Origin: Polymyxa betae
Taxonomy: Eukaryota; Endomyxa; Phytomyxea; Plasmodiophorida; Plasmodiophoridae
DNA: 57,632 nt
Assembly: GCA_003693705.1 (NCBI GenBank)
Contig: RBZT01000990.1
Coordinates: 1 to 57,632 of the forward strand
Reading direction: 5' to 3'
Positions within the stretch are counted from its first letter, which is position 1, and each line of letters starts with the position of its first letter. The notes under the pieces were generated by a model. The model ran no database searches, had not been told where the DNA came from, and saw only the letters and a program-made list of their open reading frames with translations. The translations under genes and the position numbers were made by a program. This document shows positions 48,739 to 49,974 of the stretch, in pieces.

Positions 48739-49974
48739 TCAAATTAGATCCGCGATGTTCTTTGGCATTTCCTCGATATTCGTGCCATAGAAGTCCTCAA
48801 GTTCGTGCAGCTTTCGGACATCGTCTTCAGTCACAAAATTGATTACAATACGCTTTCGTCCCAAACGATTTGATCGCTTGATACGATGAAGATGATCAGA
48901 ACAACTGACGGGTAGGTCATAGTTGATAATCAACGATTGTTCTTGAATATCTGGATCCCTGGCGAAAGAATCCGTTGTTATGATAACCCGGGTCGCTCCC
49001 GATCGAAGCTCCTTAATCATGGTCTCATGTTCGGCTGGGGTCTGGTCGTGATAAACGCCCTTGGCGTTGGCCTCGATCACCTGTTTAGATAGCCATTCAG
49101 CCTTGGGTCGGGTGTTACAGTAGACAACGGCCTGATTGATGGTCAACGTGTCGTACAGATCGGAAAGTATATCCAGCTTCGACTTCTCTCTAGTTATTTT
49201 GACGTACAGCTGCTTGACGCCTTCTAGAATAGGCTCTTCGCTATCAACAACCATCTGAACTGGATCACGCATCAACTGTGATACAAATGCTAGATCAGGC
49301 ATGACAGTAGAGAACATGCAGACCTGGGCGTTTCGTGGTAGATGCTGAAGCATGGATCGGATTATGTCTTTAAAACCCCAACTTGACATCAGATCGGCAT
49401 CTTCAATAATAAAGCACTTGACTTTATCCACTTGCAAAACGCCACGATTGATTAGTTCACAGGTACGCGGCGGTGTGCCGACCGCGACCTGAACTCCCCC
49501 GCGTAGGGCATCGACATCATCGCATTCACTTGCATCATTCAAACATGGATAACAGGTAACCTTGATCAAAATAAGTGTCAGTGATATGTGCATTTTAGTT
49601 GTCAACGTCAAATACACCTGCAGATATTCACTCAGACTTTTATCTGCTTATATATATCATAAGCATTATATTGAGTCGGTGATACGATTAAGACTTGAGA
49701 TTCCTTGATATTCATGTCTATGAATTGAAGGGTGGAGATGCAGAATATCTTGGATCTTTCAACATCAGGCTCCGCTATCAAAATTGTATCGAGTCCCTAC
49801 GACAACAGTTTTATATAGCGATTGCAATTCCTCTGCATAATTGGACAGTACCTTCAACAGCGAAACAATGCCACGTCGTTGGATATCAGTAGGTCTTTCA
49901 GATCCATACCCGCGAATACCACGAAGCAGATCACAAGGTAGGCCCAGATCATCATAGCTGGTAAGAGGCTTCAT
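48739..49974 (-). CDS. eIF4A-like DEAD-box protein with inactivated ATPase motifs
   Basis: The full-length eIF4A/eIF4A-III framework is present: LLRGIRGYGSERPTDIQRRG (Q motif region, Gln kept), SKLDILSDLYDTLTINQAVV, VVYCNTRPK, VIITTDSFAR, SLIINYDLPVSC, and the C-terminus EEMPKNIADLI. Catalytic motifs are changed one for one. Motif I aligns without gaps but GTGKT is DVERS. Motif Ia SPTRE is SPTQY. Motif II DEAD is EDAD. Motif III SAT is STV. GTPGR is GTPPR. Motif V ARGxDVQ is ARDPDIQ. Motif VI HRIGRxGR is HRIKRSNR. The open frame, splicing (55-nt intron joining SLLK to GLDTI) and uniform alignment argue against decay. Probably cannot bind or hydrolyse ATP normally; may act as a competitor or scaffold. 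One internal junction near 49.6 kb is uncertain. Confidence 0.82.

Follow-up and report, generated by a model that had tools for sequence, protein, structure and literature searches.

The closest described counterparts of the locus reported here are pseudohelicases and inactive laboratory mutants of eIF4A. Among the former, Utp25 is presented in the excerpts of PMC9539457 used here as an essential pseudohelicase of the SSU processome found from yeast to human: it is a DEAD-box descendant that has lost its helicase motifs, which were shown to be dispensable, while the protein itself has been kept, and these excerpts call it only the second pseudohelicase to be proposed. The same excerpts describe PriA of Deinococcus radiodurans as a pseudohelicase retained in the genome with altered motifs. 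Among the laboratory mutants of eIF4A1, those covered in part of PMC11897408 include E183Q, a change of the glutamate of the DEAD motif that abolishes ATPase activity, and changes at R362/R365 that block RNA binding. E183Q remained functional in a cell-free chromatin assay, whereas ATPase activity was required in that paper's tethering assay. In the portion of PMC10362145 drawn on here, the eIF4A mutant R362Q blocks translation, reportedly by preventing the recycling of eIF4A through eIF4F.

The window analyzed in this work spans positions 1 to 57,632 of contig RBZT01000990.1 of Polymyxa betae, from a genome of 24.4 Mb in 541 contigs. It holds a paralogue of eIF4A which, with about even confidence, we read as a selected, ATPase-dead pseudo-helicase that arose as a DNA-level duplicate and was kept until recently at least. 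It is comparable to Utp25 and PriA in the loss or alteration of helicase motifs, and R362Q and E183Q show that an eIF4A whose cycle is disabled can retain an effect. However, Utp25 comes with evidence of present function, whereas the paralogue has a frame break and no orthologue was found for it among the protein-database matches listed; PriA is a bacterial DNA-replication protein that was tested in vitro (both per the excerpts of PMC9539457). The laboratory mutants, as far as the two partly used papers describe them, are single changes in a normal eIF4A, whereas the paralogue keeps the equivalents of R362/R365 (numbering transferred by motif, not by structure) and loses motifs I and II. Among the literature matches listed, none was by its title about an eIF4A paralogue, and none was found that gives the eIF4G-contacting residues.

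Gene structure and motif content

Translation and alignment to the species' own canonical eIF4A showed that the minus strand from 49974 to 48739 carries a three-exon gene for an eIF4A-like protein (Table 1). The coding potential recognized in the initial annotation is thus present, and the splice that it placed near 49.6 kb is required by the exon structure. The frame of exon 3 has 0 internal stops, as against 11–22 in the other five frames.

Table 1. Parts of the eIF4A-like gene, with positions in the window
Feature	Positions	Strand	Basis
Exon 1 (start codon, Q motif)	49852..49974	-	translation and alignment to own eIF4A
Intron 1, 55 nt, GT..AG, phase 0, position as in own canonical eIF4A	49797..49851	-	
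Exon 2 to the canonical-matching donor, 179 nt (canonical 180); motifs I (PDVERS) and Ia (PTQY)	49618..49796	-	
Exon 2 codons 50-54, zone of the one-base frame change relative to eIF4A	49635..49649	-	both frames compared residue by residue
Intron 2, 57 nt, canonical intron 2 position and phase	49561..49617	-	
Frame-keeping alternative to intron 2, 77 nt	49561-49637	-	
Exon 3, 273 codons without stop; GG>ND, TPGR>TPPR, DEAD>EDAD, SAT>STV, ARGID>ARDPD, HRIGRSGR>HRIKRSNR	48739..49560	-	

The spliced paralogue matches the Pfam models DEAD (65.8 bits) and Helicase_C (54.3 bits), both above their cut-offs; the corresponding scores for the species' own canonical eIF4A are 157.6 and 121.6 bits. Across a whole-length alignment the two proteins are 51% identical. 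The end-to-end alignment claimed initially holds in part: motif I is indeed aligned without a gap, but residues 1–34 of the canonical protein have no counterpart, and there are in-frame deletions in the paralogue (two of 2 residues each, plus one of 7 residues in the spliceable reading). Most comparisons below use a 367-residue protein made of encoded residues only and following the upstream-donor reading of exon 2; this reading omits 20 nt beside the frame break and is thereby slightly biased towards an intact-looking protein.

The five motif changes named initially are all present in the alignment to the species' own eIF4A: GTGKT to DVERS, DEAD to EDAD, SAT to STV, PTRE to PTQY and HRIGRSGR to HRIKRSNR. 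The paralogue therefore has PDVERS, EDAD and STV where an active DEAD-box protein has GxGKT, DEAD and SAT, and the motifs are invariant in the 149 relatives of our conservation analysis. The accompanying description of every motif as rewritten goes too far, since the glutamine of the Q-motif, the arginine of TPxR, YCNT of motif IV, TTD and AR..D of motif V, and the histidine and three arginines of motif VI are all retained. Without the P-loop glycines and with DEAD changed to EDAD, a DEAD-box protein is expected to be unable to hydrolyze ATP. Given that the P-loop glycines are gone, the lysine has become arginine and DEAD has become EDAD, we infer from motifs I and II that the ATPase of the paralogue is almost certainly dead, in agreement with the initial suggestion. 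By descent the paralogue is a helicase and its motifs are predicted to be non-functional, a combination that counts, beside a retained helicase fold and a non-catalytic function, among the features by which excerpts of PMC9539457 characterize a pseudohelicase.

The losses are not confined to the catalytic motifs. For the conservation analysis we used 149 of the 157 relatives retrieved, having removed eight rows, six of them fusion-like or odd and two longer than 470 residues, and defined as invariant the 179 columns that are at least 99% conserved in these relatives and present in the paralogue. Invariant residues were lost at 29 of 53 motif columns versus 52 of 126 others (Fisher p = 0.10), and with a narrower core set of motifs at 16 of 29 versus 65 of 150 elsewhere (p = 0.31), so that neither a loss specific to catalytic residues nor the picture of an otherwise conserved protein was borne out. 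By domain, the invariant residues retained are 46 of 90 in RecA1 and 52 of 89 in RecA2. Grouped by conservation in the family, columns at which the paralogue keeps the family residue number 97/179 (at least 99%), 33/55 (95–99%), 27/58 (80–95%), 20/39 (60–80%) and 11/35 (below 60%). Retention barely climbs with family conservation, and divergence from eIF4A is spread throughout the protein. As losses at invariant sites are nearly as frequent as those at less conserved sites, the constraint on the paralogue was not that of a working eIF4A.

Descent and selection history

A search of the whole genome with the exon-3 frame recovered the window locus itself, a canonical eIF4A on contig C401 (52% identity) and an eIF4AIII on contig C255, the latter two with intact motifs; the canonical copy that the initial annotation proposed to look for is thus present. 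This eIF4A is 91.9% identical (376/409) to that of Plasmodiophora brassicae, and the two stay together in the tree. Both introns of the paralogue match those of the canonical gene in position and phase, which argues for an origin by DNA duplication rather than via mRNA and rules out a processed pseudogene. In a tree of 31 rows, with 28 of the 157 fetched relatives and eIF4AIII as the outgroup, the paralogue joins the species' own eIF4A, that of P. brassicae (P0002) and the sequence P0001 at 97/98. Its end branch is about 10 changes per column, compared with about 0.1 for those three eIF4A proteins (~100x). Taken together, the sequences indicate that the paralogue is a lineage-specific, DNA-level duplicate of eIF4A. 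It resembles phytomyxean eIF4A in its 51% identity to the species' own protein, its two introns and its place in this clade, and is unlike it in the altered ATPase motifs, the absence of the 34 N-terminal residues, the long end branch and the frame break. With the species' own eIF4AIII it shares the fold family and one intron at nearly the same place; however, eIF4AIII has another set of introns in another phase and the paralogue groups with eIF4A, and an identity as eIF4AIII was rejected on these grounds.

Within the phytomyxean group, pairing of the paralogue with the species' own eIF4A was neither rejected nor shown (p-AU 0.503). At the 22 sites that differ between the eIF4A proteins of P. 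betae and P. brassicae, the paralogue agrees with its own species at 7, with P. brassicae at 2 and with neither at 13, a distribution that mildly favors a duplication after the two lineages split. Open reading frames of at least 60 aa from the 10 kb around the canonical eIF4A have no counterpart in the window other than the paralogue, and thus no segmental duplication was detected in that range.

The substitutions carry the mark of selection on a protein. Relative to the species' own eIF4A, codon positions 1, 2 and 3 differ at 120, 90 and 236 of the 367 codons, and the pairwise omega is 0.105. Fixing the canonical branch at 0.005–0.05 gives an omega of 0.17–0.21 on the paralogue branch, and a neutrally evolving paralogue is worse by 2dlnL 70–76; these values are rough, as synonymous sites are near saturation and the models take synonymous time to be the same on the two branches. 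Neutral dN/dS, together with the lack of a transcript, had been named initially as the sign of a decaying duplicate, and an omega near 0.2 on the paralogue departs from it. The estimates are alike in exons 1 and 2 (0.107) and in exon 3 (0.102), which implies that selection also acted on the part of the gene that precedes the frame break and rules out selection limited to exon 3. In simulations of neutral decay to the same identity about 8 stops are expected, and none is seen; stop-free runs numbered 0, 0 and 1 of 2000 for kappa 1, 2.67 and 4. The share of differences at third positions is 0.53, versus a simulated neutral maximum of 0.41. Among replacements, 41.3% have a BLOSUM score above 0, versus an average of 28.0% and at most 38.5% under random non-stop mutation (500 runs). 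These observations are evidence that the paralogue was under long protein-level purifying selection and did not drift freely; a recent release from selection is possible.

Three protein-database searches showed, among the matches listed, no relative with altered motifs; alignment motif by motif covered the 149 relatives of the conservation analysis. The paralogue's strongest matches are eIF4A proteins with up to 49% identity (120 of 5557 matches listed); as scoring in this search was limited to the 7993 candidates with the most words in common, a distant orthologue could have been missed. With the species' own eIF4A as the query, the 120 of 7992 matches listed comprise canonical eIF4A and some fusion proteins but no near-identical match, which suggests that the species' own proteins are absent from the database. 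Query words from residues 42–160 only yielded 41 candidates, none at E <= 0.001.

By sequence, the closest solved chains to exon 3 are eIF4A-I and eIF4A-III. For structure prediction only this contiguous part was folded, using alignments that draw on 38 of the 157 relatives, all canonical proteins. The AlphaFold2 model of exon 3 (273 residues, 39 rows) has a pLDDT of 71.0 and a pTM of 0.56, with the alignment of canonical proteins pulling it towards the eIF4A fold, and in the PDB it matches eIF4AIII and eIF4A1 best (TM 0.68 relative to the query, rmsd 7.5). A control model of full-length P. brassicae eIF4A with the same relatives reached 80.1 and 0.62. The model weakly suggests that the two-domain helicase fold has been kept in the paralogue.

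The frame break in exon 2

From the intron 1 acceptor to the donor that matches the canonical one, exon 2 is one base shorter than its canonical equivalent, which amounts to a frame break as assembled. The frame continuous with exon 1, with motifs I and Ia, tracks eIF4A to about codon 50–52 and then meets a TGA. It is only in the shifted frame that the last seven codons of the exon (SLSEYLQ versus ALGDYMK in eIF4A) match, immediately ahead of the expected donor, with a score of 17 that was reached by 34 of 200,000 random 21-mers of the window. As this match runs up to the donor, exon 2 was formerly in one frame as far as that donor. A full-length frame now requires a donor 20 nt upstream, giving the 77-nt intron of Table 1, and the frame cannot be called intact as it was initially. 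Apart from this break there is no disabling lesion: the 367 codons hold 0 stops and the other indels are in frame.

The 19 introns that we placed in the genome (2 in eIF4A, 6 in eIF4AIII and 11 in HSP70/CCT genes) measure 46–54 nt, although the HSP70/CCT introns were sought between 38 and 69 nt only, so that longer ones could not appear among them. These 11 are the uniquely placed ones from 20 of 27 intron-sized junctions that were taken up. Fragment junctions of HSP70 and CCT genes (n = 37) were surveyed in 22 of 23 HSP70 and 29 of 32 CCT rows, four single-fragment rows being omitted; 27 imply 43–67 nt, 8 imply 96–201 nt and 2 are ambiguous (16 and 32 nt). Given the mean intron of 60 bp in P. 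brassicae (excerpt of PMC4471660), an intron of 77 nt would be unusual but not impossible. None of the 37 junctions between consecutive fragments implies a bare jump of one or two bases, though the two ambiguous ones leave some doubt, and hence indel errors seem to be rare in the assembly. The AAG acceptor found at intron 2 recurs in 2 of the 11 uniquely placed introns and is hence not odd in this genome. An ab initio survey of introns gave chance-like sites and was left unused, the junctions in conserved genes being taken instead. One eIF4AIII intron (L022, 1564–1610) apparently has a GC donor, the sole frame-open pair among those tried. Intron 2 of the paralogue is a multiple of three in length and lacks a stop in the exon 3 frame; its retention would not end the frame.

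Readings of the locus and neighboring genes

Under the reading that we favor, eIF4A would have been duplicated at the DNA level, introns included, within this lineage, and the copy would have lost ATP hydrolysis while selection kept a folded protein, until recently at least. We would guess that the paralogue acts, or once acted, by binding RNA or partners of eIF4A in a static, ATP-free manner. In its simplest form this would mean competing with canonical eIF4A or assisting it; competition is the simplest guess in view of the effect reported for R362Q in the available part of PMC10362145, although that mutant is changed at a residue that the paralogue retains. An ATPase-free chaperone role would have a precedent in the cell-free assay of E183Q, though not in the tethering assay (excerpts of PMC11897408). 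Today the gene may have been broken recently, may be rescued by splicing, or may contain a one-base assembly error. A more specific version, in which an expressed eIF4A-derived pseudo-helicase with its RNA or partner surfaces kept tunes translation in the place of eIF4A, and the break reflects polymorphism or misassembly or is overcome by splicing, is offered only tentatively. Of the retained pseudo-helicase proposed initially, the paralogue with its almost certainly dead ATPase and its long selection stand, but the intact frame and the specificity of the losses to catalysis do not, and the proposed titration of eIF4G/eIF4B or exon-junction partners or role as an RNA clamp would be hypothetical functions; the case accordingly carries less weight than was implied. 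If still expressed, the paralogue would be a naturally occurring equivalent of the inactive laboratory mutants of eIF4A and a young example of a helicase turning into a pseudoenzyme; if recently broken, it would be a long-selected eIF4A derivative in the course of loss.

The frame break means that the paralogue may be a recent relic. That it had the same selected history and is dead today, the break having just inactivated it, overlaps with our favored reading and falls only somewhat short of an even chance; a transcript using the old donor would then give a fragment of ~95 residues. The missing base, the old frame still legible downstream of it and the apparent rarity of indel errors at the junctions surveyed all speak for such a loss, as do simulations of recent release, in which the frame was still stop-free in 437 of 1000 runs at 0.02 neutral changes per site and in 134 of 1000 at 0.05. 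The lack of any second lesion points the other way. This same lack, and the signal of selection in the exons on both sides of the break, would fit an assembly error or an allele, with the gene intact in the organism; in view of the apparent rarity of indel errors in the HSP70 and CCT genes, we consider this rather unlikely. A still smaller chance attaches to an N-terminally shortened protein made from exon 3, through retention of intron 2 or an internal start, for which the break would be irrelevant: the stop-free intron extends the open frame to 302 codons, but the omega of exons 1 and 2 equals that of exon 3, such that they too were selected, and half of RecA1 would be missing. An ordinary unprocessed pseudogene decaying neutrally from birth would account for the frame break and the losses spread across the whole protein, but is very improbable given the omega, the absence of stops, the third-position excess and the conservative replacements. 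Least credible is a divergent helicase still using ATP with unorthodox motifs: RS in motif I preserves the basic-plus-hydroxyl pairing of KT, motif II retains acidic residues (EDAD), and the motif VI arginines and the Q-motif glutamine are kept, but the P-loop glycines are gone and the glutamate of DEAD, at which E183Q kills the ATPase of eIF4A1 (excerpts of PMC11897408), is an aspartate.

The paralogue lies among ordinary eukaryotic genes. On the same strand, 186 nt past its end, starts an SNRNP27-like gene (48040–48552, -), which codes for a U4/U6.U5 snRNP protein with an arginine-serine rich start (PF08648, 47.9 bits). Other open reading frames of the window contain WD40 (27087–27545, +), RRM (29699–30244, -) and RabGAP-TBC (40091–40573, -) domains, and one at 44681–45262 (-) has a protein-kinase match below the cut-off. 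The open reading frame at 22547–23221 (-) carries the FKS1 domain of 1,3-beta-glucan synthase (PF14288, 40.4 bits) and is probably part of a longer gene.
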